Part shown: positions 6,507-49,097 of the stretch, piece after piece | Numbering within the stretch: position 1 is the first letter of the stretch | Layout: each line of letters opens with the position of its first letter | NCBI GenBank assembly: GCA_902597895.1 | Contig: CACJZM010000004.1 | Coordinates: 1 to 49,097 of the forward strand | DNA: 49,097 bases | Origin: an uncultured Pelagibacteraceae bacterium | GTDB lineage: Bacteria; Pseudomonadota; Alphaproteobacteria; Pelagibacterales; Pelagibacteraceae | Direction: 5' to 3' | Translations under genes and position numbers: made by a program | The notes under the pieces: generated by a model | Seen by the model: the letters and a program-made list of their open reading frames with translations, nothing else | Told to the model about the DNA's origin: nothing | The model's database searches: none

Positions 6507-6535
6507 ACAGTTTTTATATTCCTTTCTTTATCATA

Positions 6536-7336: not shown

Positions 7337-7437
7337 TTTATAATTTTATCTCCGCAATTTTAAAAAAAAACTCTTCTAATACAAATGAAAAATTAGATCA
7401 ACTGTGTTAAAGACACATTTATACACTAGATAGTTGA

Positions 7438-7836: not shown

Positions 7837-7837
7837 T

Positions 7838-8878: not shown

Positions 8879-8889
8879 TATAGTCTGCG

Positions 8890-13734: not shown

Positions 13735-13810
13735 TATAAATTTGATATGTTTTTATGACAATGCTATATCCGAAAGATAAGTCAATAAAATAATTAATTG
13801 AAAGGATAAA

Positions 13811-13894
13811 ATGGGATACCCAAAAAAGCATAGAGGCCGAAGGAAAATGGGCTCAAAAAAAAGAAGAGCAAGAAAGAAAAATAAAAAGAAATAA
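13811..13894 (+). CDS. 27-residue Lys/Arg-rich protein, possible ribosome-associated (COX24/DUF1713-like)
   Basis: ATG at 13811 has AAAGGA directly upstream and opens a 27-codon frame ending with TAA at 13892-13894. About two thirds of the residues are Lys or Arg, with the core RRKMGSKKRRARKK. This pattern resembles the short basic domain shared by mitochondrial AURKAIP1/COX24 and small bacterial ribosomal proteins (KRRxKMxxHKxRKRxxx). It sits 6 bases upstream of a plus-strand membrane-protein gene and is likely co-transcribed. A protein this short is easily missed by gene callers. Binding to rRNA is inference from charge and motif. Confidence 0.62.
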   Translation: MGYPKKHRGRRKMGSKKRRARKKNKKK

Positions 13895-13900
13895 TTTAGG

Positions 13901-14590: not shown

Positions 14591-14591
14591 A

Positions 14592-15707
14592 TTATTTTGT
14601 AATCCAGCCTCCTCCTAAAACTTTATATCCATTAATATCTTTTTTATAAAATACACAAGCTTGTCCTGGAGATATTCCATGTTCATCTTCAAGTAGATTT
14701 AAGACCGATTTATCTTCTTTAAAACTTAGTTTTGATCTTAGAAGTTTGCCGGTAGATCTTACTTTTACAAGTATTTCATCTTCAAATACTTCTTTATCTT
14801 CTAATAAATTCAAATCTTTTAGAATAATTTCTTTTTTAAGAAGATCATTTTTTTGACCAACGATGATTTCGTTTTTGTCTGCATTTATATCAATTACATA
14901 AAGTGGTTCCTTTGCTGCTATCTTAATTCCTTTTCTTTGACCAATTGTAAAATTTACAATCCCATCATGAACACCAAGGACATCTCCATTTAAATTTTTT
15001 ATATTTCCTTTTTTGAAAGCTTCAGGTCTAAATTTTTCAATTACCGATACATAATTTCCATCAGGGACAAAACAAATATCTTGACTATCAGGTTTATCAG
15101 CTACATTAAGATCTAACTTTTTTGCAATATCCCTTGTCTCAGACTTTAACAAACCACCAAGTGGGAACCTTAAATAATCCAATTGTTCTCTAGTAGTATT
15201 AAATAAAAAATAACTTTGATCACGGTTTTCATCTGTTGCCCTATACATGTCAGTTTTATTATCTTTGGTAATGCTCTTTACATAATGACCTGTAATCAAA
15301 GCATCTGCTTTTAAGGATTTTGCTTCTTCAAATAAATCATTAAATTTTACAGTTTTATTGCACTGGACACATGGAATAGGAGTTTCTCCCTTTAAGTAGC
15401 TATCTACAAAATTGTCAATTACTCCTGACTTAAATTTACTTTGATAATATAAAACCTTATGTTCTATATTCAATTTATGAGCTACTCTCTTTGCATCAAT
15501 AATGTCTTGTCCAGCGCAACATACTTTAGATTTTGCTACTTGCTGGTTGTCATCAGATAACTTTAATGTAATTCCAATTACATTATAGCCTTCCATTTTC
15601 ATCAAACCAGCTACAGTAGATGAGTCTACGCCACCAGACATTGCTACAACAACAGTAGTATCTTTTGGGTTTTTATTTAAACCTATTGAATTCATTTTTA
15701 TTTTCAT
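14592..15707 (-). CDS. mnmA: tRNA-specific 2-thiouridylase
   Basis: MnmA thiolates U34 of tRNA for Lys, Glu and Gln, using ATP and a persulfide sulfur donor. The PP-loop (AMSGGVDSS, residues 22-30) is near the N terminus. The catalytic cysteine pair is in IPCVQC (near 112-117) and in [10 protein letters not shown] (near 213-222). The C-terminal beta-barrel ends with the [11 protein letters not shown] segment. The 371-residue length is normal. An alternative start 12 bases later (Met5) is possible. It is convergent with the plus-strand membrane protein, with one base between stops. Confidence 0.96.
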
Positions 15708-29938: not shown

Positions 29939-30829
29939 TTAAAATTTCCACTCAGAAATCTTACTATATAGGAAATTTCTAAATGCTTGAACTCTAGCGT
30001 TATTTTTAAGTGATTGAGGATAAACAAAGTGTGCCTCAGTTATGGGACCCTCTATTTTAGGAAGCACTTTAACTATATTTGGTACATTAACAGTTATGTA
30101 ATCTGGTAATGCAGCTAAACCAACACCACTTTGAACAGCTAACAATAGTCCATAAACGCTATTTACCTTCATTACTGCACTTCTTTTCTTGCTATCTTTA
30201 ATACCAAGTTTAAGTGCCCAATCTGGATTAAATACTGGAGAAGGAGCGCCTTTTCCAAATGAAATAAATTTATGTTTATTTAAATCATTTATTGTTTTCG
30301 GATAACCAAATTTATCTAAATATTTAGTTGAACCATATAAATGGTAATTAATATCAATCAATTTTCTTTGTATATAATTGAGTTGCTTTGGTCTTCTCAT
30401 AAATATACCAATGTCAGCTTGTCTTGTGCTTAAATCTAGTTCTTTGTCATCAAATACCAATTCTATCTCAATTTCAGGGTGTAATTGCATAAATTCCTGA
30501 ATTCTCGGAGTTAGCCAAGTTGTACCAAAACTTACTACAGTTGTTACGGTTAGTTTTCCGTGCGGTTTATCTTTTTTATCTCCTAAAGTAGTTTCAACTT
30601 CTTTTAGTTTGCTTATAACTTCATGAGCAGTTTTAAATACATATTCTCCATTTTCTGTTAAAGTAAGTCCTCTTGCATGTCTTTCGAATAATTTTACTTT
30701 TAAATCATCTTCTAAAGATTGAATTTGTCGACTGATAGCGGATTGACTAAGATTAAGATTAACTGTTGCGCTAGTAAAACTACCTGCTTCAGCGACTGCA
30801 TGAAAAATTTTTAATTTATCCCAGTCCAT
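29939..30829 (-). CDS. LysR-family transcriptional regulator
   Basis: The 296-residue protein has an N-terminal winged helix-turn-helix (AEAGSFTSATVNLNLSQSAISRQIQSLE within about residues 13-40). The effector-binding domain follows from about residue 90 (LTVTTVVSFGTTWLTPRI). It belongs to a common LysR branch related to GcvA. Its ATG overlaps the stop of the AcuI-like reductase gene by one base, so it may control its own operon. Its effector is unknown. Confidence 0.92.
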   Translation of the reverse strand: MDWDKLKIFHAVAEAGSFTSATVNLNLSQSAISRQIQSLEDDLKVKLFERHARGLTLTENGEYVFKTAHEVISKLKEVETTLGDKKDKPHGKLTVTTVVSFGTTWLTPRIQEFMQLHPEIEIELVFDDKELDLSTRQADIGIFMRRPKQLNYIQRKLIDINYHLYGSTKYLDKFGYPKTINDLNKHKFISFGKGAPSPVFNPDWALKLGIKDSKKRSAVMKVNSVYGLLLAVQSGVGLAALPDYITVNVPNIVKVLPKIEGPITEAHFVYPQSLKNNARVQAFRNFLYSKISEWKF

Positions 30830-31827
30830 TATTTATTTAAATCAACTATAACTCTTCCAGAAATTTCACCTTTTAAAATTTTCGGATAAGTTTCAATTAA
30901 TTCCTCCAAACTTACTATAATAATTGATTTTTCAAGCAAATCAAAATCAACTAATTTTGAAGCTTCTGACCATATAAAATCTCTTCTTTTAATACTGCAG
31001 TTTGCAGAGTCCATTCCCCAAAGTTTAATTCCTCTTAACATAAATGGTATAACGCTTGTGTTAAGTTCATTGTTGTTCGCATTTCCACATACAGCGATAA
31101 TTCCATTAGGCTTAGTTTGAACTATTGCATTGGCCAAAATTTTTCCTCCAACGGTATCAACAACTCCATCCCACAACCCTTTATCAATTAGCCTTGGATC
31201 TTTGTCATATTCTGACCGATTTATAACGTTTTTTGCACCTAATGATTTTAAATAATCAGCTTTATTATCTTTTCCTGTAACGGCAGTAACATTATAACCT
31301 AACTTTGTTAAAGCCATAACTGCTACACTGCCTACACCACCCGTGGCGCCTGTTACTAAAACATCATTAACTTTTTCACCTAATAAAATACTTTCTCTTG
31401 CTTGAATTGCAAAAGCACTCATTAATGAAGTGAAGCCAGCTGTTCCTAAAATCATAGCTTGTCTACTTGTTATATCTTTAGGTTTTTTAACCAAAAAATC
31501 TGCATTTACTTTTGCTATTTGAGAATATCCACCATAGAAAATTTCACCTACTCTAAAGCCTGTTAAAATTACTTCGTCACCCTCTTTAAACTTGGGGTTT
31601 TCACTTTCTAAAACTTTTCCTGAAAAATCTATTCCTGGAATGTGAGGAAATTCTTTTACTAATCTGCCTCCATTTTTTAGAATCATTCCATCTTTAAAAT
31701 TAAGATCTGAATATTCTACTTTAATTGTAACATCACCATGTTTTAAAAAACTTTTATCTATTGATTTAATTTCTCTTGTAAAATTCTCACCTTCTTGGTT
31801 GAGAACCAATGCTTTAAATTTATCCAT
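30829..31827 (-). CDS. acuI: AcuI/YhdH-type acryloyl-CoA reductase (MDR family)
   Basis: The 332-residue medium-chain reductase is without zinc-binding cysteines. The N-terminal segment YSDLNFKDGMILKNGG and PHIPGIDFSGKV are typical of YhdH/AcuI. The NADPH-binding motif is TGATGGVGSVAV (near 159-170). AcuI reduces acryloyl-CoA to propionyl-CoA and protects cells from acrylate made from DMSP. A DddP-like gene about 12 kb away fits this, but general quinone or enoyl-CoA reductase activity cannot be excluded. The gene pairs with the LysR regulator downstream and lies 15 bases after folE. Confidence 0.85.
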   Translation of the reverse strand: MDKFKALVLNQEGENFTREIKSIDKSFLKHGDVTIKVEYSDLNFKDGMILKNGGRLVKEFPHIPGIDFSGKVLESENPKFKEGDEVILTGFRVGEIFYGGYSQIAKVNADFLVKKPKDITSRQAMILGTAGFTSLMSAFAIQARESILLGEKVNDVLVTGATGGVGSVAVMALTKLGYNVTAVTGKDNKADYLKSLGAKNVINRSEYDKDPRLIDKGLWDGVVDTVGGKILANAIVQTKPNGIIAVCGNANNNELNTSVIPFMLRGIKLWGMDSANCSIKRRDFIWSEASKLVDFDLLEKSIIIVSLEELIETYPKILKGEISGRVIVDLNK

Positions 31828-33366: not shown

Positions 33367-34986
33367 TTACATATTGCCGTATTTGGGTCCCCCTCCACCT
33401 TCGGGTGTTACCCAATTAATATTTTGTGATGGTTCTTTTATATCGCAAGTTTTGCAATGTATACAATTTTGAGAATTTATTACAAATTTATTTAAACCAT
33501 TTTCCTGTTGAACTTCATAAACTCCTACTGGACAATATCTTTGAGCAGGTTCATCAAATTTTTCTAAAGTATACTTAATTGGCAAATCTTTATCCTTTAA
33601 TTGTAAATGAACAGGTTGATTATCTGCATGATTTGTCCCTGTTAAATATACAGAACTTGTTTTATCAAAAGTAATTATATTATCAGGCTTTGGATATTCA
33701 ATCTTTGGCATTTCCTTTGCTGGTTTTAGAGTTTCATGATCAGCATGTTTGTGTTTTAAGGTAAATGGTAATTTACCTCTAAATAAAATTTGATCTATAC
33801 CGGTAAATATTATACCTAAAATTAATCCCCAGCTAAAACTTGGTTTAACATTTCTTGCGGAATGAAGTTCTTCGTATACCCAGCTGTTTTTGAATCTATT
33901 CTCGTAAGATGATAAATTTTTATTTTCTCTTAAATGGTCAATTATAGTTTCTGCAGCTATCATTCCACTTTTCATTGCGGTATGAGAACCTTTAATTTTT
34001 GGCATATTCAATGTACCCGCATCGCAACCAACTAATAAAGCGCCTGGCATATGCATTTGCGGCAAACTTTGTAAACCTCCTTCAATAAGTGCTCTTGCTC
34101 CATAAGAAATTCTTTTGGCTCCTTGAAGAAGTTTAAGTATTGATGGGTGAGTTTTAAATCTTTGAAATTCATCAAATGGAGATAAATGAGGGTTTTTATA
34201 ATCCAAACCAATAACATAACCTAAAAATATTTGCTTATTTTCTGCGTGATACACAAAGCTTCCTCCATATGTATCATTATCTAATGGCCAACCAGCTGTA
34301 TGCATTACAAGTCCCTCTTCATGATTTTTCTCATCAATCTCCCAAATTTCCTTGAAACCTATTCCATACTGTTGAGGATTTTTACCTTTGTCTAATTCAT
34401 ATTTTTTTATTAATTCTTTTCCTAAATGTCCTCTACACCCTTCTGCAAATACTGTAACTTTAGCATGCAATTCCATTCCAGGTTCGAAACTATCTTTTTT
34501 ATTTCCTTCTTTATCTAAACCCATATCTTGTGTGGCCACACCTTTAACTGAACCATCATCGCTGTATAAAATTTCACTAGCAGGAAAACCTGGAAATATT
34601 TCAACACCTAAATTTTCTGCTTGTTCAGCAAGCCATCTACAAAGGTTCGCCAAGCTTATAATATAGTTATTATGATTTTTTTGGACTTTAGGTAAAAGCC
34701 ATGTTGGCCAGCTTATAGATTTAGATTTACCAAGAAATAAAAATTTTTCATTTGTAACTTTAGTTTTAATTGGCGAACTCATCTCTTTCCAGTTTGGTAA
34801 CAACTCATCCAATGCTTTCGTTTCAAAAACATTTCCTGACAAAATATGAGCACCAATTTCAGATGCTTTTTCTAAAAGGCAGACATTAATATCTGGATTT
34901 AACTGCTTAAGTTTTATTGCAGTTGAAAGTCCCGATGGTCCGCCACCTACGATTACTACATCGTATTCCATCACTTCTCTGGACAT
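33367..34986 (-). CDS. etfD: Electron transfer flavoprotein-ubiquinone oxidoreductase
   Basis: The 539-residue membrane-associated flavoprotein passes electrons from ETF to ubiquinone. The FAD motif GGGPSGLSTAIKL is at about residues 13-25. The 4Fe-4S site is near the end, with cysteines in RYCPVGVYEV and NCIHCKTCDIK, and the closing PEGGGGPKYGNM is typical. A hydrophobic loop that dips into the membrane lies in the C-terminal half (GLILGIIFTGIDQIL). The gene is last in the run and follows etfA by 25 bases. Confidence 0.95.
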   Translation of the reverse strand: MSREVMEYDVVIVGGGPSGLSTAIKLKQLNPDINVCLLEKASEIGAHILSGNVFETKALDELLPNWKEMSSPIKTKVTNEKFLFLGKSKSISWPTWLLPKVQKNHNNYIISLANLCRWLAEQAENLGVEIFPGFPASEILYSDDGSVKGVATQDMGLDKEGNKKDSFEPGMELHAKVTVFAEGCRGHLGKELIKKYELDKGKNPQQYGIGFKEIWEIDEKNHEEGLVMHTAGWPLDNDTYGGSFVYHAENKQIFLGYVIGLDYKNPHLSPFDEFQRFKTHPSILKLLQGAKRISYGARALIEGGLQSLPQMHMPGALLVGCDAGTLNMPKIKGSHTAMKSGMIAAETIIDHLRENKNLSSYENRFKNSWVYEELHSARNVKPSFSWGLILGIIFTGIDQILFRGKLPFTLKHKHADHETLKPAKEMPKIEYPKPDNIITFDKTSSVYLTGTNHADNQPVHLQLKDKDLPIKYTLEKFDEPAQRYCPVGVYEVQQENGLNKFVINSQNCIHCKTCDIKEPSQNINWVTPEGGGGPKYGNM

Positions 34987-35011
34987 AATAATTATTTTAT
35001 TACAGGTTTTG

Positions 35012-35965
35012 TTATTTTTGTATAGTGTTTAATTTGTTCAATTCTTCAAGAAACTGTGGCAATGCTTCAAAAAGATCTGCTTCTAAACCATAGTCTGCGA
35101 CACTAAAAATTGGGGCTTCACCATCTTTGTTTATAGCTACTATTACTTTACTTTCTTTCATTCCAGCTAAGTGTTGGATTGCTCCTGAAATACCAACTGC
35201 AATATATAAATCTGGTACAACAACTTTTCCAGTTTGTCCAACTTGGTGATCATTTGTAATATAACCTGCGTCTACAGCAGCTCTAGAGGCACCTATTGCA
35301 GCATTAAGCTTATCTGCTACTTGAGTGATTAGTTTAAAATTATCTCCACTTTGCATACCTCTCCCACCAGATATAACTACTCTAGCAGTACCTAATTCGG
35401 GTCTATCTGATTTAACTTCCTCTTTTTTTATAAATTTCGATTCTTCATAATTTTCTTTTGCTTCTGAAGTAATTATTTCAGCTGACCCACCTGAACTTTC
35501 TGCCTGTTCAAAAGATGTTGGCCTAATAGTTATACATTTTTTTTGATCATTACTTTTGACAGTTGCAAATGCATTTCCAGCATATATTGGTCTTAAAAAA
35601 GTATCACTTGAAATCACTTTAATAATATCACTTATTTGTGAAATATCTAAAAGCGCTGCTACCCTTGGCATGAGATTTTTACCAAATGTATTAGCTGAAC
35701 ATACTAAATATGAATACTTTTCTGAATTTTGAACAATTACAGGAGTAAAATTTTCAGCTAAGTAATTTTCATATATTGGATTGTCTACATGAATTACTTT
35801 TTTTACCAAAGGAATATTTGATGCTGATTTTGCTACATCGCCAGCGTTGTGACCGATAACAAGCACATGCAGATCCTGATCAATTTGAGATGCAGCTGTC
35901 ACTGCATTTAATGTAAAAGGTTTTAACTCCTTATTATTATGTTCTGCTATTAATAAAACCGACAT
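35012..35965 (-). CDS. etfA: Electron transfer flavoprotein, alpha subunit
   Basis: The 317-residue FAD-binding subunit of ETF takes electrons from flavoprotein dehydrogenases. The C-terminal FAD domain contains [12 protein letters not shown] (near 198-209), [11 protein letters not shown] and [12 protein letters not shown] (near 259-270), then [15 protein letters not shown]. The start overlaps the etfB stop by one base. Its neighbours point to the DMGDH-like enzymes as electron donors. Confidence 0.96.
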
Positions 35966-36714
35966 TATATTACTTTAGCCTCATTTTTGAGTTTTTGAAC
36001 CAACTCTGCAACGCTGGATACTTTTATTCCAGCTTTTCTTTTTGGAGGTTCTTCAACCTTAATTTGCTCGATTCTTGGTTTGGTATCAACCCCTAATTCT
36101 GAAGCACTAATTTGCTCTAAAGGTTTTTTTTTTGCTTTCATTATATTTGGCAGGGAAGCGTATCTTGGTTCGTTAAGTCTTAAATCACAGGTGACAATAG
36201 CAGGTATTTTCACCTCAATCGTCTCAAGTCCTTCATCGATCTCTCGGGTAACCTCTAAAGATTTATCTTTAATATTTATATTGGAAGCAAAGGTAGCTTG
36301 AGGCCAATTTAAAAGTGCAGCTAACATTTGGCCTGTTTGATTACAATCATCATCAATTGCCTGTTTTCCCATAAAAACTAAATCGGGTTTTTCTTTATCA
36401 ACAATTTTTTGTAAAATTTTTGATACTGCTAATGGTTCTACTATACCTTCCACTTTAACATGAATTCCTCTATCCGCACCTACTGCTAAAGCTTTTCTTA
36501 CAGTCTCTTGCGCTTTTTCTTCGCCGATTGTTATAGCAACAATCTCTTTTGCTTTTCCTGATTCTTTAATTTTTACAGCTTCTTCAATTGCATTATCATC
36601 TGGAGGATTGGTTGACATTTTAACATTGTCTGTAACAACTCCTGTACCATCATCTTTAACTCTTATTTGTACGTTGTAATCAATAACTCTTTTAACCGCG
36701 ACAAGTATTTTCAT
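35965..36714 (-). CDS. etfB: Electron transfer flavoprotein, beta subunit
   Basis: The 249-residue AMP-binding subunit of ETF. Marks are [19 protein letters not shown] at the start, [16 protein letters not shown] (near 37-52) and the signature region [21 protein letters not shown] near 174-194, which contains the recognition loop for dehydrogenases. It overlaps the DMGDH-like gene by one base and etfA by one base. Confidence 0.96.
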
Positions 36715-39146
36715 TATGCTCTCAACAATTTATTTTCTGGGTCATAAGGACTTTCCTCTAAAACTGTAGCGTCATGCATTTTACCCAATATATCAATTTT
36801 TAATTTTTGACCTGTATTTGCTAGATCTGGTTTAATCATAGCAAGTGCTATGGATTTATCCAGTCTAAATCCAAAATCACCACCTGTAGCTCTGCCAATA
36901 ACACTTCCATTTTCATAAACAGGATTATTGCCTAATACATCTGCATCTTTTGTACCATGAACTTCGAGTGTTATAAGTTTGTTTTTAAATCCTTTTTCTC
37001 TCCATTTATTAAGTGCATCAAGTCCAATAAAACTTCCTTTATTGGGATGAACAAACCTATCCAAACCACTTTCGTAAGGTGAATACTCTATTGACAATTC
37101 TGTACCAACAAGCTTATAGGATTTTTCTACTCTTAAACTGTTCATTGCTCTTATGCCAAAAGGTTTTAAACCTAAATCTTTACCAGCGTCCATTAATTTA
37201 TCAAATATATGATTTTGGTACTCCATAGGGTGATGAAGTTCCCAACCTAATTCACCAACAAAATTAACCCTCATAGCATTTACTGGTGCATAACCGACAT
37301 CAACCATTTTAGAACTTAACCATTTAAAGTTTTCGTTTGAAAAGTCATCATTAGAGACCCTCTGCATTAATTCTCTTGCTTTTGGTCCTGCTACAACCAA
37401 TACTCCATTGCTGTTAGTTAAATTTTCAAATTGTACAGACCCATCATTTGGCATCCATTTAAGTATCCAATCATGATCTAATCTTTGATTAGCTCCTGCA
37501 GAAACCAAATAATAAGAATTTTCCGACTCTCTCATAATTGTAAACTCAGAGTGTACTCCACCTTTAGTATTTAATGCATGACACAAATTAATTCGGCCAA
37601 TTTTTTTTGGCAATTTATTTGCAACAAGTTTATCTAAGAATTCTTCTGCTCCCGGACCTTTAATTCTGCATTTTGCAAATGCAGTCATATCTAATAGTCC
37701 GACATTTTCTTTTACGTTTTTGCATTCTTTCTCTACTGCTTTAAACCATTTAGATCTTCTAAATGACCAATCATCCTTTTGCTCCATTCCATCTGTTGCA
37801 AAGAAATTTGGCCTTTCCCATCCAAATTTTTGTCCAAAAACTGCTCCTAAATTTTTCATTCTGTCGTAGCACGGAGCTGTTCGTAATGGTCTTGCTGCTG
37901 GTCTTTCTTCATCAGGAAAATGGGTTATAAACACATGGCTATATGCTTCCTCATTTTTTTCTTTTAGATATGTTTTAGAACAATAATCTCCATATCTTCT
38001 AGGTTCAACACCTAACATGTCTATAGTTGGTTCACCATCTATAATCCACTCTGCCAGTTGCCAGCCAGCTCCACCAGCTGCTGTTATACCAAAACTATGG
38101 CCCTCGTTTATCCAAAAATTTTTTAATCCCCAGGCTGGGCCAACTATTGGATTTCCATCTGGAGTATAACATATAGCACCATTATAAACTTTCTTTACTC
38201 CAACTTCGCCAAAAGCAGGAACACGGTGAATAGCTCCTTCTATGTGCGGGGCTAACCTATCTAAATCTTCTTGAAATAATTCATATTCAGATTCTTTTGA
38301 TGGTCCATTTACATAACAAGCGGGAGCACCATCTTCATATGGTCCTAATATTAAACCGCCAGCTTCTTCTCTCATATACCATCTACTATCACTATCTCTA
38401 AGAACTCCCATTTCTGGAAGACCTTCTTTTTTTCTTTTTTGAATTTCAGGGTGAGGCTCTGTTACTATGTATTGATGTTCAACAGGAATTACTGGTATAT
38501 CCAATCCAACCATTTTACCTGTTTGTCTAGCAAAGTTTCCTGAACAAGATATTATATGTTCACATTCAATTGAACCTTTGTCTGTTTCCACTACCCATCC
38601 GTCTTTTGTTTGTTTCATCCCAATGACATTGGTATTTCTATAAATTTCAGCACCTCTATTTCTTGCGCCAGTAGCTAAAGCTTGTGTTAAATCTGCTGGC
38701 TGGATATATCCATCTTCAGGATGTTGGATCGCACCAACCAAATCAGATGTATTACACAATGGCCAAATTTCTTTTACCTGGTCTGGGGTTAAAAATTTTA
38801 CATCAACACCTATTGTTTGTGCTACACCTGCATACTGATGATACTCATCCATTCTATCTTTGTTGCTAGCCAATCTAATATTAGATACAACACTAAAGCC
38901 TACATTTTTCCCTGTCTCTTCTTCTAAATTTTTATAAAGATTTACAGCGTATTTATGTAACTGGCCTACAGAATAACTCATATTAAATAGAGGGAGTAAT
39001 CCAGCTGCATGCCAAGTTGATCCTGACGTTAGTTCTTTTCTTTCAATTAAAACTACATCGGACCATCCTTTTTTTGCTAAATGATACAACGCGCTTACAC
39101 CTACTACGCCACCGCCAACTACCACTACTTTAGTTTTAGTTTTCAT
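36714..39146 (-). CDS. Dimethylglycine/sarcosine dehydrogenase-like flavoprotein (copy A, with ETF genes)
   Basis: The 810-residue enzyme has an N-terminal FAD domain ([12 protein letters not shown], residues 11-22) and a C-terminal GcvT-type folate-binding domain (about 440-810). His46 in SGSTWHAAG corresponds to the residue that holds FAD covalently in DMGDH. These enzymes oxidise N-methyl groups and pass the one-carbon unit to tetrahydrofolate, with electrons to ETF. The etfB and etfA genes follow with one-base overlaps, which strongly supports ETF as acceptor. The exact substrate (dimethylglycine, sarcosine or another N-methyl amine) cannot be read. A paralogue lies at 46171-48576. Confidence 0.9.
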
Positions 39147-40258: not shown

Positions 40259-40725
40259 TCATTTCTTAAAACTGGAAAAACTGGATTAGATTTTTGAAAA
40301 ATTTTTTGATATTCCTGCTTAATACATTTATCAGAAATGTATTTGATATTTGCGTTTTCTGAAATATTTTGAGCTTCATCATTATGGATTCCGTATTGTA
40401 ACCATAAAGCTTTCGGAGATAATCTAATAGCTTTATTAGCATATATTATTGCTTCTTTTGAAGGTCTAAATACGTCAACAATATCAACTGGAGAGTCAAT
40501 ATCATCCAAATCTTCAAGAACTTTTTCTCCATTAATGATTTCTCCTTTTGCAAAAGGGTTAATCGGTATTACTTTGTACCCAAAATTTTGCATATATTTC
40601 ATTACTACATTAGCTGGTTTTCTTTTAATGTTTTTTGGATCTTCTTTTTTTTTTTCTGAACTAACGCCTATCATGGCAATAGTTTTAGACTCTTCTAAAA
40701 TTTTTTTGATTTCTTCTGTATTCAT
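40255..40725 (-). CDS. CoA-binding domain protein (YccU type)
   Basis: The 156-residue Rossmann protein of the CoA-binding/succinyl-CoA synthetase alpha N-terminal fold. IAMIGVSSEKKK near 17-28 is the nucleotide loop. YKVIPINPFAKGEIINGEKV follows, then VDIVDVFRPSKEA and LWLQYGIHNDEA near 109-120. YccU homologues bind CoA, with no proven activity. It overlaps the ECHDC3-like gene by 4 bases, so a shared acyl-CoA link is possible. Confidence 0.87.
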   Translation of the reverse strand: MNTEEIKKILEESKTIAMIGVSSEKKKEDPKNIKRKPANVVMKYMQNFGYKVIPINPFAKGEIINGEKVLEDLDDIDSPVDIVDVFRPSKEAIIYANKAIRLSPKALWLQYGIHNDEAQNISENANIKYISDKCIKQEYQKIFQKSNPVFPVLRNE

Positions 40726-41495
40726 TTATTTTTCCATTTAGGTTTTCTTTTTTCAATAAATGCAGAGATACCCTCATGAGCATCCTTGGCCATCATATTT
40801 AAAGTCATCATTCTGCTTGTATATGAGTATGCTTTTTTTAAAGGCATTTCTAATTGTTTATAAAATGCTTGCTTACCAATTTTAATTGTTAAATTTGACT
40901 TTGAGGCAATATTTTTTGCTAACTTTATAACCTCTTTTTCTAATCTTTTTTTAGGATAAAAATCATTTATTAAACCAATCTCCTTAGCAACCTTCGCTTT
41001 TATAGGTTCTCCTGTTAAAAGCATCTTCATCATTCTTTTTCTATTTACCTTTCTACTAACAGCAACCATAGGTGTGCTACAAAAAAGTCCAATATTTACA
41101 CCTGGTGTAGCAAACGTTGCATCTTTGGAGCTATAAGCTAAATCACAACTTGCAACTAGTTGACATCCTGCTGCATAAGCGGCTCCATGAACTTTTGCTA
41201 TAACTGGTTTTCTTCCTTCAACAATTTGTAACATTAGTCTTGAACAAAGATTAAATAGTTTAAGATATTTAGATCTAATTTTTAATGACTTAACCTCTTT
41301 TAAGTTATGACCAGCGCTAAATCCTTTTCCGGAACCCTCAAGAATTATTACTTTTGTTGAATTGTCTCTATCAAGTTTCTTAAAAGTTTTTATAAGTAAA
41401 TTTAAAGTTAAATTTGATAATGAATTATATGTTTTTGGATCATTAATAATTATTTTTTTAATACCTGACCCTAAATTTTTTATTATAACACTCAT
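40722..41495 (-). CDS. Enoyl-CoA hydratase/isomerase family protein, ECHDC3-like
   Basis: The 257-residue crotonase-fold protein. The oxyanion-hole region is GKGFSAGHNLKEV (near 56-68) and AAYAAGCQLVASCDLAYSS (near 107-125). The segment ATPGVNIGLFCSTPMVAVSR is characteristic of the ECHDC3 branch. The usual catalytic glutamates of hydratases are not obvious, so its activity is unclear. The gene follows the 2OG-oxygenase by 3 bases. The substrate is unknown. Confidence 0.88.
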   Translation of the reverse strand: MSVIIKNLGSGIKKIIINDPKTYNSLSNLTLNLLIKTFKKLDRDNSTKVIILEGSGKGFSAGHNLKEVKSLKIRSKYLKLFNLCSRLMLQIVEGRKPVIAKVHGAAYAAGCQLVASCDLAYSSKDATFATPGVNIGLFCSTPMVAVSRKVNRKRMMKMLLTGEPIKAKVAKEIGLINDFYPKKRLEKEVIKLAKNIASKSNLTIKIGKQAFYKQLEMPLKKAYSYTSRMMTLNMMAKDAHEGISAFIEKRKPKWKNK

Positions 41496-41498
41496 TGA

Positions 41499-42350
41499 TT
41501 AATCAGCTAAACCGTCAGATCTCGCCATGTTTCTTTCTAAATGGATAGGTAAAACTTTACCATAGATAGCTTTTGAATGTTCAGGCGTATTTACTCTCCA
41601 AGGATCTAGCACGTATGCAGGAATACACATGTATCTAGATTTTTGGCCCTCTATTTTTGTTACCCTGTGCAAAGTAAATCTGCCTTTAAATATTTGCAAA
41701 TCGCCTGGTTCAAGTTGTAGCTGTTTAACTCTTGTTCTATCTCCCTCTAATACTTTTTTTACTTCATCAAAATTCTCATTTCCTGGCTCTCTAATGTTTG
41801 GGCAATATTCAAATATTCCGCCTTTTTCTGGCTTTTGTATCATTAAACTCAATGTGAATTCACAACTATCAAAATGCCAAGGGAGTATTCCTTCTGGCTT
41901 CATAACATTGTAAGCATGACACGCCAAAGGATCAGCCCATCTATAAATAGGTGAAATCCCAAGACACTTTGAAACAAACTTTAATAATTCATCTGTCTCA
42001 TATAAATATTTCATTTCAGAGTCTTTTGGAAAACAATCGGAATTTAAATAGCCATTATATCGTTTCATAAAAGATCTTTTTGGATGATCTTTTGGTAAAG
42101 ATGGATCATCTTTAGCGTATAAATATGCGTTTATACTTTCTTTAGACATATAAACTTTATCAAGTTGCTTATCTAATTCTTTATTCATGATTTCTAATGA
42201 TTTGGGTAAAATAAAATTTTTAATCGTAGAACAACTATATTTGTCTAATTCTTTTTTACATCTAAGAATTAGGTTTTTAATAATTGGAGAGTCTAAATCA
42301 TTTATTGGATATTTTTCTAAATCTACAATAGATTTAAGTCTTTCATTCAC
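41499..42350 (-). CDS. 2-oxoglutarate/Fe(II)-dependent oxygenase-like protein
   Basis: The 283-residue protein has a jelly-roll oxygenase core in the second half. The iron triad is H-x-D in LPWHFDSCEF (near 175-184) and a distal His in FTLHRVTKIEG (near 235). An Arg after it (KSRYMCIPAYV) could bind 2-oxoglutarate. The Asp ligand is present, so it should be a hydroxylase or demethylase rather than a halogenase. It overlaps the nucleotidyltransferase gene by 4 bases. The substrate is unknown; a free amino acid or osmolyte is likely. Confidence 0.8.
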   Translation of the reverse strand: MNERLKSIVDLEKYPINDLDSPIIKNLILRCKKELDKYSCSTIKNFILPKSLEIMNKELDKQLDKVYMSKESINAYLYAKDDPSLPKDHPKRSFMKRYNGYLNSDCFPKDSEMKYLYETDELLKFVSKCLGISPIYRWADPLACHAYNVMKPEGILPWHFDSCEFTLSLMIQKPEKGGIFEYCPNIREPGNENFDEVKKVLEGDRTRVKQLQLEPGDLQIFKGRFTLHRVTKIEGQKSRYMCIPAYVLDPWRVNTPEHSKAIYGKVLPIHLERNMARSDGLAD

Positions 42351-42721
42351 TTTAATTCGCCATCCTCTCGCATCTTAGCTCTAATTTTTGTAGCTGATAT
42401 TTTTTGAATCTCTTCTGATAAAACAATCTCTTCAATTTTATAACCCACGCCTCTTCCATAACATATATTTGTTATATTCGGTACCAACATTACCTGAAAT
42501 CTACCTTCAAATTCAGGGTTAAGTCTTTCTTCAATTTTTTTTTTTACAGTTTCAAAATCAAATGGATTATCGTCTACTCCTTGTACATCTCTTATCTGAA
42601 TACAAACTTGTCCAGTTTTTTTTATAATTTCTTTAAATAAGTTGTAATGACCATCATGAAATGGTTGCCATCTTCCAAGCATTTGAGCTGTTGGCTTTTT
42701 GTTATCCCATTTATAAGTCAT
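42347..42721 (-). CDS. Small nucleotidyltransferase (HxGH/NadM-like)
   Basis: The 124-residue protein has the nucleotidylyltransferase motif LGRWQPFHDGH (H22-x-x-H25) and the second motif ISATKIRAKM near 108-117, like ISSTxxR of this superfamily. Closest in style are NMN adenylyltransferases of the NadM/NadR type (GRFQPxHxGH), but its role need not be in NAD synthesis. It overlaps a small kinase gene by 4 bases, suggesting a two-step activation: phosphorylation of a small molecule, then transfer of a nucleotide. Confidence 0.82.
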   Translation of the reverse strand: MTYKWDNKKPTAQMLGRWQPFHDGHYNLFKEIIKKTGQVCIQIRDVQGVDDNPFDFETVKKKIEERLNPEFEGRFQVMLVPNITNICYGRGVGYKIEEIVLSEEIQKISATKIRAKMREDGELK

Positions 42722-43128
42722 TTTTTAATATCCTCTAAAATTTTTGGTACCCAAGTCTTAGCATCTTGAGTGGTAACATGAAAATTATATTTTTCCGGTT
42801 TTATAAACATTAGATTGGTATCTTCAAATCTTCCTTTTTTAATTGTATCTACCCATATTATATAATCTGCAGGGAATAACTCTCTAGCCTCTGGTGTCGG
42901 GCATATAAAATCAGCTACTACATAATTACCTTCATCTTTTAGCTTTAATGCGTAATTAGCCATTCTTATTGATTGTCTTTTTCTTCCTTCTTCAGAAAAA
43001 TCCCAATCATTTGCAGCTTTTCTTACTTCATCTGCATTGAGTCTTTTTGCATTTAATTTTGGAGCAAGTTCATTTGCTAAAGTTGTTTTACCTGCTCCAG
43101 GCAATCCCATAACTAAAATTATTTTCAT
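42718..43128 (-). CDS. Small P-loop kinase related to APS kinase
   Basis: The 136-residue protein has Walker A GLPGAGKTT (residues 8-16). LNADEVRKAANDWDFSEEGR (near 31-50) and a FICPTPEAREL segment (near 84-94) resemble the APS-binding region of CysC. It is much shorter than CysC (about 200 residues) and lacks several lid residues, so the acceptor may not be APS. Its partner is the nucleotidyltransferase downstream (4-base overlap). Upstream it overlaps the DddP-like gene by one base. Confidence 0.8.
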   Translation of the reverse strand: MKIILVMGLPGAGKTTLANELAPKLNAKRLNADEVRKAANDWDFSEEGRKRQSIRMANYALKLKDEGNYVVADFICPTPEARELFPADYIIWVDTIKKGRFEDTNLMFIKPEKYNFHVTTQDAKTWVPKILEDIKK

Positions 43129-44363
43129 TAAATATCTTCTAACGGATGATGGGACATAAGTTCAAGTCCATTTTCACCAACTAAATATTGCTGTTCTAAT
43201 TTAACTCCCTCTTTTCCTCCTACTTTTCCAATGTAACTTTCAAGAGTAATTGTCATATTCTTTTCAAAACAGCCATTTCTTTGACCTCCATCTGTTGGGT
43301 ATCTAATTGCAGGCCACTCATCACACATACCTATTCCGTGCAACATAACTGAGTATCTATTCCCATAATACTCATCAGGTAATATCCATGACTTTTCTGT
43401 AAACTCTATAAAAGACATACCAGGTTTTATTAACCTGTAATTATGATTTATTTGATCTACAGCCATATGATATAATTTTTTTTGTTCATCATTAAATTTA
43501 TTTCCCACAACAAAAGCTCTTGAAATATCAGCGCAGTATCCATATGGGCCAACCATATCTGTATCAAAAGAAACAATTTCACCACTTTGAATTATTTTAT
43601 TACTACTTTCTTGCATCCATGGATTAGTTCTTTCACCTGATGATAATATTCGACATTCTATCCATTCACCACCATGCTCAATATTAGTTTTATGTAAAAT
43701 TGACCAAAGTTCATCTTCGGTCATTCCAGCTTTTAATTCATTTCGCATTCTAGCAACTCCAATTTCAGCTACTTCAACGGCTGCTTTCATACATTTTAAT
43801 TCTTCTGCAGATTTTATAACTCTTGCTTGTTCAAGAATTAATTTCGCATCAACTACATCGATGCTGGCTTTATTTAAAGCTGTTACTGCTGGTCCGTTTA
43901 TTACATCAATTGCTACTTTTTTACTTTTAAAAAAAGATTTTGATAAATCTTCAATTTCATTAATCCATTTTTTCAATTGCACACTTGCTTGATCGCCATT
44001 GCTGAAATAATCCCAAGTTATCGCTGGCCTTATTTCATTAATTAAATTTAGATGACTAGAGAATACCTCGCAATTAAAATACTCATATAAAATTACTGGT
44101 CCTTCTACTGGTATAAAACAATATCTTGTTAAGTTGTGCATGTTATAAACACTCATATTAACAGTATCTAATGCATAGCGAACATTTACCGGATCAAATA
44201 ATATGCACGCTTCAAGATTATTTTTTTTTAATTCTGATTTAACTCTGTCTAGTCTATAAGATCTTAGCTTATCAAAATTAATTTCATCTTCTTTTAGTCT
44301 TTTTTTAGTAATAAAATTTGGCTTTACTTTTAAATCTGGTGATATTTTTCTATTAATTTTCAT
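43128..44363 (-). CDS. DddP-like M24-family metalloenzyme (possible DMSP lyase)
   Basis: The 411-residue protein belongs to the M24/creatinase fold. Beyond the fold it follows DMSP lyase DddP in several places: ILFDPVNVRYALDT near 54-67, EHGGEWIECRILSSGER, SFDTDMVGPYGYCADIS and MLHGIGMCDEWP. Metal ligands D267, D279, H342, E375 and E390 keep the family spacing, and D348, six residues after H342, matches the proposed catalytic Asp of DddP. I chose ATG 44363 (ATGA overlap with the Rieske gene); 44387 would add eight residues. DddP paralogues with other substrates exist, so activity is unproven. Confidence 0.82.
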   Translation of the reverse strand: MKINRKISPDLKVKPNFITKKRLKEDEINFDKLRSYRLDRVKSELKKNNLEACILFDPVNVRYALDTVNMSVYNMHNLTRYCFIPVEGPVILYEYFNCEVFSSHLNLINEIRPAITWDYFSNGDQASVQLKKWINEIEDLSKSFFKSKKVAIDVINGPAVTALNKASIDVVDAKLILEQARVIKSAEELKCMKAAVEVAEIGVARMRNELKAGMTEDELWSILHKTNIEHGGEWIECRILSSGERTNPWMQESSNKIIQSGEIVSFDTDMVGPYGYCADISRAFVVGNKFNDEQKKLYHMAVDQINHNYRLIKPGMSFIEFTEKSWILPDEYYGNRYSVMLHGIGMCDEWPAIRYPTDGGQRNGCFEKNMTITLESYIGKVGGKEGVKLEQQYLVGENGLELMSHHPLEDI

Positions 44364-45538
44364 TGAACTATATTTGTTGCTACCCACTTATGAAAATGAT
44401 GAGTTGGATTATCCATCTTTGGGGAAAAATTACCTCCATTATATGCTGGAGAATTTCTTCCTATTTGCATTCTTTGAATAATATCTACATCTTCTTTTTG
44501 TATATCTTCCCATTGTTTATGATTTTGTTCTCTTAAAGATTTAAATTTTTTTGAATTAGCAGCTTCATCCCCAACATAATATATTTCCATATGTTCAAGC
44601 GTATACTCGTGATTAATTGGTTCTAGCCAATAAGCATAGTAATGGTCTTTATGTATACCTAGCATAACATTAGGAAATAGTGCTACATATTCAGCTATAT
44701 TTTCCTTATCTTTAGGCCAGCTAGGAAAACATGGAAATTTTTTATTACCTTTAAATATTGGATTGTACACAACGGTGCCTTGGCCTGCAAAACGATTTGG
44801 CAAACCTTGAATGTGATAGTGGTCTTCAAGTTTTGAATAAGAATTTAATCCTGGATGAACCCATGGTAAATGATAACTTTCACAATAATTTTCAATAGCA
44901 AATTTCCAATTGCATTTTGCATCTAATTTAAAATAACCATAATCATCAGCATGATAAATTAAATCTCTATCTTTAATTGGCCAAAATTGTTCCCATCTTT
45001 CGCTCAAAGGTTTAATATAATTTTCAAATGAAATTTCATTATTATTTATATTTATCATTATTAAATCTAACCAAATGTATGATCTAATTTCTTTTAAATT
45101 ACTTCTTGATTTTTCAAAATCAGGACTTTGATGAATATTCATTCCACCTATATGTGGTGTTGCTATTAATTCCCCATCTAAATTATATGACCATGAATGA
45201 TAAGGACACCTAATAACATTTTTAATTTTTCCAGGCTCTCTAACTAATTTAACTCCTCGGTGGCTACAAATATTGTGGAAAACTTTAATTTGATTATTTT
45301 TAGTTCTAACAATTAATATAGGCATTCCAAGAAGATCAATTGGCCTAGCATCACCAATATTTGATAAAGAACTTGCTACACCAATTACAATCCATTTATC
45401 TTCAAATAACTTTTTTCTCTCAATTAATGTATATTCTTTACTTGTATAACATTCGTTTGGAAGTCCGTTTGCCTCGCTGATTGGTTTGTTTACAATATCT
45501 AGTTTTTGTTTATCTATAATATTATAAATATCTGACAT
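44360..45538 (-). CDS. Rieske non-haem iron oxygenase, alpha subunit (GbcA-like)
   Basis: The 392-residue oxygenase has a Rieske 2Fe-2S site (C91-S-H93 and C111-x-x-H114) in the N-terminal third and a mononuclear iron site in the rest (ENYCESYHLPWVHP, with H223 and H228). The closest type is glycine betaine monooxygenase GbcA and related quaternary ammonium oxygenases (CPYHSWSYNLDG). No reductase partner gene is in the window. The setting between a methyltransferase and a DddP-like gene, with a DMGDH-like enzyme upstream, suggests demethylation of a quaternary amine. Confidence 0.85.
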   Translation of the reverse strand: MSDIYNIIDKQKLDIVNKPISEANGLPNECYTSKEYTLIERKKLFEDKWIVIGVASSLSNIGDARPIDLLGMPILIVRTKNNQIKVFHNICSHRGVKLVREPGKIKNVIRCPYHSWSYNLDGELIATPHIGGMNIHQSPDFEKSRSNLKEIRSYIWLDLIMININNNEISFENYIKPLSERWEQFWPIKDRDLIYHADDYGYFKLDAKCNWKFAIENYCESYHLPWVHPGLNSYSKLEDHYHIQGLPNRFAGQGTVVYNPIFKGNKKFPCFPSWPKDKENIAEYVALFPNVMLGIHKDHYYAYWLEPINHEYTLEHMEIYYVGDEAANSKKFKSLREQNHKQWEDIQKEDVDIIQRMQIGRNSPAYNGGNFSPKMDNPTHHFHKWVATNIVQ

Positions 45539-45541
45539 AAC

Positions 45542-46171
45542 TTATTTTATCACTTCATACAATCCAAGCCAAGCATTTACGTCTTTGCTTGCAATATAAT
45601 CTGATTTAAAAAATTCTATTTCTTTCCACTTGTTGTCATTATTTAATTGGTCAATTTTTTTATCAAATCCATATTCTTCATGGATACCTTCGTTAATAGT
45701 AAAGCAAATCAGTCCTTTATTTTTTGTTATTCTGATAAATTCATCAAGAGCGGGTGGTTTAACATGACCAAATGTAAAAGTTCCTACACACATAACAGCA
45801 TCAAAAGTATTATCAGTTTCATCAATAGGTTTGTTAAGATCAACTTTATCTAATTTTTGGTAAAGATTTTTTGGAACTAAATTTAAGAGTTTTTGTGAAA
45901 GATCTGCCCCAAAAAAATTTTTATAACCATATTTTTTTAATTCGACACCCACTAAACCTGTTCCACAACCTGCATCATATATTTTTGCTTCTTTATCTTT
46001 ATTATATCTTATAAAAACTTCTGTAGTTTCTTTTGGACCTGTATAATTCCAATCAACCATGTCTTTGTCATATTTATTTTCTTCACCCCACTCATCATAG
46101 TATTTCATAACTTCGTCAGTTTTTTTTAATTTATAAATTGGAACTTTGTTTCCTACATCTTTTTGGGCCAT
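45542..46171 (-). CDS. Class I SAM-dependent methyltransferase
   Basis: The 209-residue protein has the SAM-binding motif IYDAGCGTGLVGVEL (near 83-97), then the acidic end of strand 2 in FFGADLSQ, and FDAVMCVGTF for motif III/IV. The N-terminal part (VMKYYDEWGEENKYDKDM) is typical of the UbiE/Williams-Beuren-like branch. The substrate is unknown. It overlaps the DMGDH-like gene by one base and lies 3 bases from the Rieske gene. Confidence 0.85.
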   Translation of the reverse strand: MAQKDVGNKVPIYKLKKTDEVMKYYDEWGEENKYDKDMVDWNYTGPKETTEVFIRYNKDKEAKIYDAGCGTGLVGVELKKYGYKNFFGADLSQKLLNLVPKNLYQKLDKVDLNKPIDETDNTFDAVMCVGTFTFGHVKPPALDEFIRITKNKGLICFTINEGIHEEYGFDKKIDQLNNDNKWKEIEFFKSDYIASKDVNAWLGLYEVIK

Positions 46172-48576
46172 TAACTTCTCATTTTCTGACCACTTGGATC
46201 ATAAAGTGGTTCCTTAATAATTGCGCAATTAAATAAATCACCATTAATTTCTACCTGTATACCTTTTTCGGAGTTTAATTCTTTTGTATTTAAATAAGAG
46301 AAAGCAACGCTCTTATTTACAAAATGCGCAAAACCTCCTGATGTAATATAACCAATACTTTTATCACCTTTCATGACAGCTTCGTTATAGGTCACATCTA
46401 TTTCATTGGTCTCCACCATTAGAGGTACTAGTTTGTTTTGACAGATATCTTTTTCTGCCGATTCTTTTCCAATAAATTCTTTGTTCCAATTAATAAATTT
46501 ATCTAGTCCAGTTTCTTTGGCAGTAAAATCTGGTCTATAATCTAAAGTCCAAGCTCCCCAATTTTTTTCTAGTCTCATAGACATTAGCGCTCTTGATCCA
46601 AAAGGCTTAATATTAAATTCCTTTCCTGCTTCCATTATTTCTTCGAATAATTTAATTTGGAAATGGGGAGCTACGTAAATTTCATAACCAAGCTCTCCAG
46701 TGAAAGAAATTCTATTAATTACCGCAGGTACACCGGCGACAAACATTCTTCTACTATCTCTAAATTTTAAATTACTATTAGAAACATCTTCTCTTACAAT
46801 TTTTTGAAGTAAATCTCTTGATTTAGGTCCAGCAATACCAATTCCATGAAAGTCATCAGATCTATTTTTATAACTAACATTAAATTTTTTAATATGACTC
46901 TCAAACCATCTTCTATGCATTTCTTGTGCAGCACCAGATCCAAAAATTAAGAATTCGTTTTCATCTAAGCAAGAAATTGTCAAATCGCCATAAAGCTTTC
47001 CTTTATATGTTAGCATAGGGCTTAATGAGATTCTTCCAGGATTAGGAATTTTACCCGCCATTATATAATCTAAAAATTTTCTAGCGTCTGGTCCTGTAAA
47101 TTCATGTTTTGAAAAATTTGCCACCTCTGTTGCTCCAACATTTTCTCTTACATTTATTACCTCTTTAGAAACATAATTATGAGATCTTGATCTTTTTATT
47201 GTTGGTTCCTCAAAAGCATCTTCTTTATTTTTTGAAAACCAAAGAACATTTTCTAATCCAAAAGAATCTCCCATTACAGCACCTTGATTTATAAATCTAT
47301 CGTACAAAGCTGTTGTTTTTTGTTTTCTACCTTTTGGTAATGTTTCGTTAGGAAACGTCATGATAAATCTTCTTTCGTAATTCTCAGAAGATTTAATTGT
47401 TCCATATTGAGGTGATGCATAATTTCCAAATCTTGCAACATCCATTGCCCAGACATCTATCGAAGGTTCGCCGTCAATTATCCATTCAGCAATGCACTTT
47501 CCAACTCCTCCTCCTTGGCAAAAACCTGCCATAACCCCAACTGCAACCCAATAATTTTTCATTCCAGGTACTGGACCTATTAATGGACTTCCGTCAGGAC
47601 CGAACGTAAATGGTCCATTTACAATATTCTTTATTCCAGCTTTTTCCAAAGCTGGCATTCTCTCAAAACCAATAGCTAATCTATCTTGAATGTTATCAAG
47701 TTTAGGTTCTAAAAGTTCATGTCCAAAATTCATTGGAGTTCCCTCTACTTTCCATGGTGTTGATTTTTGTTCGTAGGTGCCGAGCAACATTCCTTTGCCC
47801 TCTTGTCTAAAATAAATATTACCCTCAAAGTCAGTTCCAATCGGAAGTCTTTGATCACCCATTGCCTCTATTTCTGGAATTGCTTCTGTAATTAGATAAT
47901 GATGCTCCATTGGCTGAACTGGTAAATTTAATCCTGCTAATTTTCCTACTTCCCTTGCCCATAATCCCCCTGCATTAATAACTATTTCAGCATTAATATT
48001 TCCTTTGTCAGTTACAACATCCCAAGATCCATCATTTTTCTGTTTTGTATCTTTGACAATTGTATGAGTATAATATTTTCCACCATGTATTTTTGCTGCT
48101 TTAGCAAATGCATATGTAACACCTGAAGGATCTACTTCGCCATCTATTGGATCCCATAAAGCTAGAAGGTATCTTTTAGGATCAATTAAAGGATTTTTTT
48201 TTTTTACTTCATTCAAAGATATAAATTCTTGATCAAGTCCCATATATCTTGCTTTAGATCTTTCTCTTTTGAGATATTCAGCCCACACATCATTTGAAGC
48301 TAAATAAAATCCTCCACTTGGTTTAAAACCAGTAGAATGACCAGATTCTTTTTCAATATCTTTATAAAGGCCAATAGTATAAGCCATCATTCTAGAAATA
48401 TTGGGGTCAGAAGAAATAACATGAACATTTCCAGCAGCATGCCATGAAGAACCTGAGGTAAGCTCATTTCTTTCTAGAAGAATACAATCCTTAAGTCCAA
48501 ACTTTGCTAAATGATATAATATTGAACAACCAACTACCCCACCACCAATAATTGCAACTTTAACATTTTTTTCCAT
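46171..48576 (-). CDS. Dimethylglycine/sarcosine dehydrogenase-like flavoprotein (copy B, next to BHMT)
   Basis: The 801-residue protein has the same build as the copy at 36714-39146: FAD motif GGGVVGCSILYH at 11-22, His46 in SGSSWHAAG for covalent FAD, and a GcvT-type folate domain in the C-terminal half. Differences (for example WHAAGNVHVI after His46 against [10 protein letters not shown] in copy A) suggest different substrates. It begins directly after the BHMT-like stop with no gap, so dimethylglycine released by BHMT would be its natural substrate. Electrons probably go to the ETF encoded at the end of the run. Confidence 0.9.
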   Translation of the reverse strand: MEKNVKVAIIGGGVVGCSILYHLAKFGLKDCILLERNELTSGSSWHAAGNVHVISSDPNISRMMAYTIGLYKDIEKESGHSTGFKPSGGFYLASNDVWAEYLKRERSKARYMGLDQEFISLNEVKKKNPLIDPKRYLLALWDPIDGEVDPSGVTYAFAKAAKIHGGKYYTHTIVKDTKQKNDGSWDVVTDKGNINAEIVINAGGLWAREVGKLAGLNLPVQPMEHHYLITEAIPEIEAMGDQRLPIGTDFEGNIYFRQEGKGMLLGTYEQKSTPWKVEGTPMNFGHELLEPKLDNIQDRLAIGFERMPALEKAGIKNIVNGPFTFGPDGSPLIGPVPGMKNYWVAVGVMAGFCQGGGVGKCIAEWIIDGEPSIDVWAMDVARFGNYASPQYGTIKSSENYERRFIMTFPNETLPKGRKQKTTALYDRFINQGAVMGDSFGLENVLWFSKNKEDAFEEPTIKRSRSHNYVSKEVINVRENVGATEVANFSKHEFTGPDARKFLDYIMAGKIPNPGRISLSPMLTYKGKLYGDLTISCLDENEFLIFGSGAAQEMHRRWFESHIKKFNVSYKNRSDDFHGIGIAGPKSRDLLQKIVREDVSNSNLKFRDSRRMFVAGVPAVINRISFTGELGYEIYVAPHFQIKLFEEIMEAGKEFNIKPFGSRALMSMRLEKNWGAWTLDYRPDFTAKETGLDKFINWNKEFIGKESAEKDICQNKLVPLMVETNEIDVTYNEAVMKGDKSIGYITSGGFAHFVNKSVAFSYLNTKELNSEKGIQVEINGDLFNCAIIKEPLYDPSGQKMRS

Positions 48577-49097
48577 TTAATATTTTATTTCCTTATTTAC
48601 TTTTTTTAAAGAAGCTTCTGTTCCATGATGGAAATGCTTACTCATATCAGGCATATACTTAATAGAAATTGGTTTTTTTCCAACTGCTACTGACATCTCT
48701 CTAACATGGTGCGCCTCTGCACCACAACAAATGCCTATAAAATGAATTTTTTCTTTTAAACAATCTTTAGCAAATTCAGCCATTTCAAATCTATTACAGT
48801 ATAGATTGTCTAATGCGACTGGAAATGCATTTCCTCCTGGTATACAATCACATCCATGATCTGTTTGATTTAAAAATCCTGGCTCTTCTTTAGTGGTCCT
48901 ATAAGGAACTGGCAAACCAGCTACATGACAAGATACATTATTTCTGATTTCCTTGAGTAAATGCATTGTCATTTCTGGACCTCTATAACAATTAAGTCCA
49001 ACAACATCTGCTCCTAGATCTTCAACAATTTTACAAGCTTCTGCAGCAGAATATCCATCTCTTGTTTTGTCTCCTCTAGGAATTGCATAATTTGCAA
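48577..49097 (-). CDS. bhmT: Betaine-homocysteine methyltransferase-like protein, C-terminal part
   Basis: The frame is open to the window edge, so the N terminus lies outside. Zinc-binding cysteines of the homocysteine methyltransferase fold are visible: DVVGLNCYRG and, further on, FIGICCGAEAHH. PGGNAFPVALDN and the tail KYMPDMSKHFHHG are consistent with BHMT. BHMT moves a methyl group from glycine betaine to homocysteine, making methionine and dimethylglycine. The DMGDH-like gene follows without a gap. The in-frame ATG at 48972 is internal to the domain and is not the start. Confidence 0.85.
   Translation of the reverse strand, partial: ANYAIPRGDKTRDGYSAAEACKIVEDLGADVVGLNCYRGPEMTMHLLKEIRNNVSCHVAGLPVPYRTTKEEPGFLNQTDHGCDCIPGGNAFPVALDNLYCNRFEMAEFAKDCLKEKIHFIGICCGAEAHHVREMSVAVGKKPISIKYMPDMSKHFHHGTEASLKKVNKEIKY

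Follow-up and report, generated by a model that had tools for sequence, protein, structure and literature searches.

The number of dddP genes in metagenomes is used as a proxy for the production of DMS, and cells of the SAR11 group are among the most abundant in the ocean. In DddP, roles have been assigned to the metal ligands and to the residues equivalent to Y366 and D377 of RlDddP (PMC4108388, PMC5395565), and an aspartate and a phenylalanine replace the two histidines by which M24 enzymes bind their substrates (PMC5395565). In surveys, matches have been accepted as dddP by E-value, or with thresholds of 40% identity and 70% coverage (PMC7494906, PMC6309047).

The gene described here lies in a window of 49,097 nucleotides, the whole stretch of DNA analysed (contig CACJZM010000004.1), which comes from a SAR11 (Pelagibacterales) genome; the closest relatives of the gene are found in Pelagibacteraceae genomes, at up to 96% identity. 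The initial annotation had placed it within a methylamine/betaine operon, which is borne out. The features are as follows, in coordinates of the window:

48577-49095, minus strand: BHMT-type homocysteine S-methyltransferase, cut by the window end
46171-48576, minus strand: DMGDH_A, FAD oxidoreductase with a GcvT domain (dimethylglycine/sarcosine dehydrogenase type)
45542-46171, minus strand: SAM-dependent methyltransferase
44360-45538, minus strand: Rieske oxygenase, GbcA-like (glycine betaine monooxygenase), 114 bits against a cut-off of 670
43128-44363, minus strand: DddP-family M24 gene, intact ORF of 411 aa, subject of the initial annotation
42718-43128, minus strand: small P-loop kinase, APS-kinase-like, its start overlapping the M24 stop
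42347-42721, minus strand: small nucleotidyltransferase-like protein, cytidylyltransferase-like, just below the Pfam cut-off
41499-42350, minus strand: PhyH/HalD-like protein, possible Fe(II)/2-oxoglutarate oxygenase, with HxD, not HxG, at H159
40722-41495, minus strand: enoyl-CoA hydratase, operon backbone, also in genomes without the M24 gene
36714-39146, minus strand: DMGDH_B, a 36% paralogue of DMGDH_A, operon backbone
33367-36714, minus strand: ETF beta, ETF alpha and ETF-quinone oxidoreductase-like genes, named by sequence and order
30829-31827, minus strand: YhdH/AcuI-family reductase, 398 bits to TIGR02823, 340 against 440 for AcuI proper, outside the module

The operon is transcribed in the order BHMT, DMGDH_A, methyltransferase, Rieske, M24, kinase, nucleotidyltransferase, PhyH and enoyl-CoA hydratase, followed further on by DMGDH_B and the ETF genes; the ETF-quinone oxidoreductase-like gene, the one of the three ETF-type genes submitted to a profile scan, gave no specific family match. 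The ATG of the M24 gene at 44363, from which the 411 residues are counted, overlaps the stop codon of the upstream Rieske gene (ATGA), and its own stop overlaps the ATG of the next gene (TAATG); an alternative GTG at 44387 would yield 419 residues, and the plus strand over 43128-44363 is full of stops. An OpuAC-type binding protein and a permease, together a betaine-type ABC transporter, are encoded upstream in 41 of the 43 full-length SAR11 loci, 24 of these 43 also have a carnitine-dehydrogenase-like gene, and the small kinase directly follows the M24 gene in 77 of 80 SAR11 loci. The tiny kinase and nucleotidyltransferase-like pair (42347-43128), to which no confident family could be assigned, is kept in most SAR11 genomes examined, and in many SAR11 genomes autotransporter beta-domain ORFs of 700-780 aa lie between the two genes (L012:9669-14188, L027:9576-11921, L064). 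The window also carries aprA and aprB (adenylyl-sulfate reductase) at 4180-6506, both over their curated cut-offs.

The M24 protein contains a PF00557 (M24 superfamily) domain scoring 109.8 bits against a cut-off of 23. In a phmmer search of the PDB the top four chains were the DddP structures 4rzy, 4s01, 4s00 and 4b28 (E 1e-76 to 1e-78), and the first match other than DddP was an aminopeptidase P (E 4e-19). Likewise, the predicted structure (mean pLDDT 86.9) matches DddP (4s00/4b28) with a Z of 44.5 over 396-399 residues, against 32-34 for prolidases, creatinase and EutD/DoeA, no structure other than DddP exceeding 34. The earlier statement that the protein resembles DddP more than it does Xaa-Pro peptidases or creatinases holds in both comparisons, by a margin far beyond chance, and an identity as creatinase or prolidase was rejected on the weaker structural match. 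A C-N hydrolase similar to creatinase or ectoine hydrolase, with a guanidino or amide osmolyte as its substrate, would share the M24 fold common to creatinase and EutD/DoeA and would find support in an arginase-family ORF present in the operon in 3 of the 43 full-length SAR11 loci, but we consider it improbable, given the Z of only 32 to creatinase and EutD. In addition, an alignment with YpdF reveals that the conserved substrate-binding histidines of the Xaa-Pro peptidase/creatinase/ectoine hydrolase group (M24B) are absent from the SAR11 protein, which has a methionine (M250) at the first site and an aspartate (D348) near the second, and a separate ectoine-hydrolase-like M24 gene is found elsewhere in the same genome (L002 (G000:C7), 1078-2247; 460 bits to EutD/DoeA, cut-off 613).

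All six metal ligands of RlDddP (D295, D297, D307, H371, E406 and E421) are kept in the SAR11 protein, as D267, D269, D279, H342, E375 and E390, and in the same alignment Y337 corresponds to Y366 and the candidate base D348 to D377, in agreement with the DddP-like metal and Asp spacing (H342 to D348) pointed out in the initial annotation. Since DddP matches far better than any other fold, and the six ligands, Y337 and D348 are all kept, the protein, as judged from sequence and predicted model, is likely to have an active DddP-type centre. A catalytically idle remnant or a moonlighting protein would fit with an M24 protein of no known activity, but is very hard to reconcile with an ORF that is open in all copies read and conserved at about 80-96% identity across SAR11, in which, among 112 copies, the ligands, Y337 and D348 are invariant except for one asparagine at one ligand, and with a gene that is gained and lost together with a module, as described below. 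Two further positions differ from the Roseobacter enzymes (numbering of RlDddP): F278 is replaced by methionine (M250) in all 112 copies, and W95 by tyrosine or phenylalanine (Y73 in this protein) in 111 of them. On our reading of the YpdF alignment, in which F278 matches an M24 histidine, F278 would be the phenylalanine meant in PMC5395565, and of the Asp/Phe pair of DddP the SAR11 protein keeps the aspartate and has methionine at Phe278. W95 may be the sulfonium-binding tryptophan of DddP, and both positions would take part in substrate binding; the structure model is uncertain in the W95-equivalent loop, where residues 70-76 have a pLDDT below 50. Changed substrate-pocket residues had been named beforehand as one part of a refutation of the DddP assignment, and changes are present at the putative pocket residues F278 and W95, whereas the metals, Y366 and D377 are unchanged.

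The relationship to DddP was then considered at the level of the family. Against the DddP equivalog model (NCBIfam NF043017) the SAR11 protein scores 342 bits, the curated cut-off being 600, and its identity to RlDddP is 34%; Roseobacter-type DddPs are 32-36% identical to it, versus 40-54% for many uncharacterised alphaproteobacterial proteins. In a maximum-likelihood tree of 85 proteins, fungal DddPs not among them, the clade of RlDddP comprises 25 entries (ultrafast bootstrap/SH-aLRT 100/99), including the Roseobacter-type proteins, the protein of locus L191 described below and the AcuI-linked proteins of family f184. The SAR11 proteins form a separate clade with family f114 (100/99), outside the RlDddP clade, although the branches between the two are weak. 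A tree constrained to unite SAR11 with DddP is worse by 85.7 log-likelihood units (AU p = 0.0025, for a group named after the tree had been seen). The phylogeny proposed in the initial annotation as a check on its DddP assignment therefore places the protein elsewhere: by the tests applied, which are based on sequence, it is a DddP-family enzyme on its own branch and not DddP. In the papers searched, mostly those available without subscription, so that an earlier mention is possible, no description of this SAR11 branch was found.

Distance alone does not exclude lyase activity outside the DddP clade, since DMSP is also cleaved by fungal DddPs whose identity to RdDddP is as low as 32% (PMC4108388). 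The protein could thus be a true DMSP or DMSOP lyase, a diverged DddP that forms DMS (or DMSO) and acrylate, with the betaine transporter also importing DMSP. It keeps every residue that PMC4108388 describes as catalytic in DddP, on what is the nearest fold (Z 44.5), and AcuI, a core gene, could deal with the acrylate. We nevertheless find this somewhat unlikely, considering the position outside the DddP clade, the score under the model cut-off, the fixed F278M and nearly fixed W95Y/F exchanges in SAR11 and the pattern of inheritance of the neighboring genes.

A total of 40 Pelagibacter genomes, each at least 92% complete, were compared, 20 with the M24 gene and 20 without it. Orthologues of PhyH, DMGDH_A and BHMT are each present in 20/20 genomes of the first group and 0/20 of the second; the other matches were one 55% homologue of PhyH, two 49% homologues of BHMT and, for DMGDH_A, a 36-37% paralogue. 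In a recA tree of 38 genomes the M24 gene switches between presence and absence at least five to six times. DMGDH_A and PhyH follow it in each of the five independent pairs, Rieske and kinase only in some; a sign test on five pairs has a lowest possible p of 0.06, and the pairs covered DMGDH_A, PhyH, Rieske and kinase, BHMT having the same distribution as DMGDH_A and PhyH. The M24, PhyH, BHMT and DMGDH_A genes thus occupy three places in one operon, yet are gained and lost together. This perfect co-inheritance with methyl-group enzymes, which DMSP cleavage does not need, speaks against a DMSP lyase. Genomes without the M24 gene mostly retain the kinase, nucleotidyltransferase, hydratase, DMGDH_B and ETF genes as a backbone, and in them the kinase gene is often immediately adjacent to that for Rieske; the betaine-type ABC transporter pair was found in 0/17 stretches fetched from such genomes. 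Physical adjacency is misleading for Rieske (20/20 with the M24 gene, 12/20 without) and for the small kinase (20/20 and 15/20), because many genomes lacking the M24 gene still carry them, mostly side by side, and they were rejected as its dedicated partners.

AcuI was likewise rejected as a partner, being present in 19/20 genomes with the M24 gene and 20/20 without it. The proposal of the initial annotation that the AcuI-like reductase at 30829-31827 handles the acrylate product is not supported, given that the gene lies 11 kb from the M24 gene, beyond folE and a plus-strand hisI, and has no co-occurrence link with it; for a DMSP lyase, too, the failure of AcuI to be co-inherited is unfavorable. 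Cupin DMSP lyases (PF16867, which may not cover DddK) were dismissed as replacements where the M24 gene is missing, as they are rare in both groups (2/20 each).

A similar association is observed around genes of the DddP family in other bacteria. Of 56 such loci, 10 have a DMGDH-type gene at a distance of up to about 10 kb, against 0 of 40 control stretches taken from these genomes (p = 0.005, with a DMGDH query drawn from the window), and any of nine quaternary-amine markers in 21/56 against 2/40, a partly circular comparison in which most markers were picked from the same loci after some had been viewed. AcuI is near in only 2 of the 56. In another Pelagibacterales family (L191, G398:C1:110500-130400) a DddP above the cut-off, with 788 bits, belongs to a cluster (6064-14007) of BKACE, carnitine-dehydrogenase-like, butyrobetaine-dioxygenase-like, BHMT and DMGDH genes with a choline/betaine-type transporter. 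Because an above-cut-off DddP occupies such a setting of BHMT, DMGDH and ABC transporter, the slot could be for DMSP, which favors a DMSP lyase in SAR11; it also raises the question of the original substrate of DddP-family enzymes. In locus L211 (G226:C13:52000-71900, region 5380-15622), a second above-cut-off DddP, of family f13, the group with most above-cut-off DddPs here, is flanked by GbdR-like regulator, DMGDH and MTTB genes and by a threonine-synthase-like/Kbl/Tdh set; a DddP-like gene in L179 has a similar set, and these neighbors may hint at a threonine- or homoserine-derived betaine. We may speculate, with little confidence, that the family was betaine-cleaving at its root, the SAR11 enzyme breaking the C-N bond of a quaternary-ammonium carboxylate by the elimination of DddP and DMSP cleavage being a specialised or side activity of one branch. 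In a further clade of DddP relatives (L202, L204, L206, L207 and L209) the position of the catalytic aspartate is a glycine (HGVGxHGE), and in four of these five loci a PhyH homologue adjoins the gene.

Based on these observations, we hypothesize, giving it about an even chance of being correct, that the SAR11 enzyme, with its predicted M24 'pita-bread' fold, two metal ions and an aspartate at the place of a peptidase histidine, performs one step in an accessory cassette for betaine use, cleaving an onium carboxylate by DddP-type chemistry, with a betaine rather than DMSP as substrate. DddP-type chemistry on a carboxylated onium compound, the most likely class of substrate, is suggested by the retained metal centre and D348, and a betaine is more probable than DMSP because of the co-inherited module. 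The betaine-type ABC transporter would import the onium osmolyte, and the M24 enzyme, probably with the PhyH oxygenase, would cleave or trim its carbon skeleton; BHMT and the two DMGDH/GcvT enzymes would strip N-methyl groups to homocysteine and folate, and ETF would take the electrons from the dehydrogenases. On the model of DddP, the carboxylate of the substrate would be held by the metals and its cation by aromatic side chains, and D348 would take the alpha proton, whereupon the bond to the onium group would break. To our knowledge glycine betaine itself needs no such M24 enzyme, which leaves a gap in this proposal. The fallback of the initial annotation, under which the protein would be related to DddP but act on a different onium compound, for example a betaine, has become the better-supported explanation, in view of the separate branch and of the co-inherited BHMT, DMGDH_A and PhyH. 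A role as homarine operon was rejected, since the published pathway is described, as cited in PMC13390433, as using an Mgd enzyme, and nothing in this locus points there.

The SAR11 branch is thus a separate and widespread one of a known family, within a defined module. With 40-43% identity to DddP-clade proteins, for example those of families f53, f184 and f214, this SAR11 protein could be counted as dddP without evidence that it makes DMS, and the gene, whose product probably acts on a related osmolyte, should not count as a proven source of DMS. The four-gene module (M24, PhyH, BHMT and DMGDH_A) could, in turn, reveal a route by which some of the betaine pool is consumed.

Compared with the systems already described, the SAR11 protein shares with EutD/DoeA and creatinase the M24 fold, and these act on small osmolyte or amino-acid-like substrates, but its Z to them is 32, versus 44.5 to DddP, and it is devoid of the peptidase-type histidines. 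Its nearest DddP-like relatives, family f114 from alphaproteobacterial genomes of 1.4 Mb (53% identity), for which, as for the other SAR11-like relatives in Alphaproteobacteria, no characterised member was found, likewise have an aromatic residue other than tryptophan at position 95, and BHMT or Rieske genes near two of three; they differ in a leucine at position 278, and no matching PhyH or DMGDH_A was found in the fetched stretches. With DddP (RlDddP 4rzy, RdDddP 4b28) it has in common the fold, the DddP-type N-terminal domain, the six ligands and the Y366/D377 equivalents; in contrast, it belongs to a separate clade at 34% identity and 342 of 600 bits, carries the F278M and W95Y/F exchanges, and is encoded in a betaine module instead of beside an acrylate gene. 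Finally, the operon resembles glycine betaine degradation (BHMT, dimethylglycine and sarcosine dehydrogenases) in combining the same enzyme types with ETF in one operon, but adds to them an M24 enzyme and a PhyH oxygenase, which have no role in that pathway.
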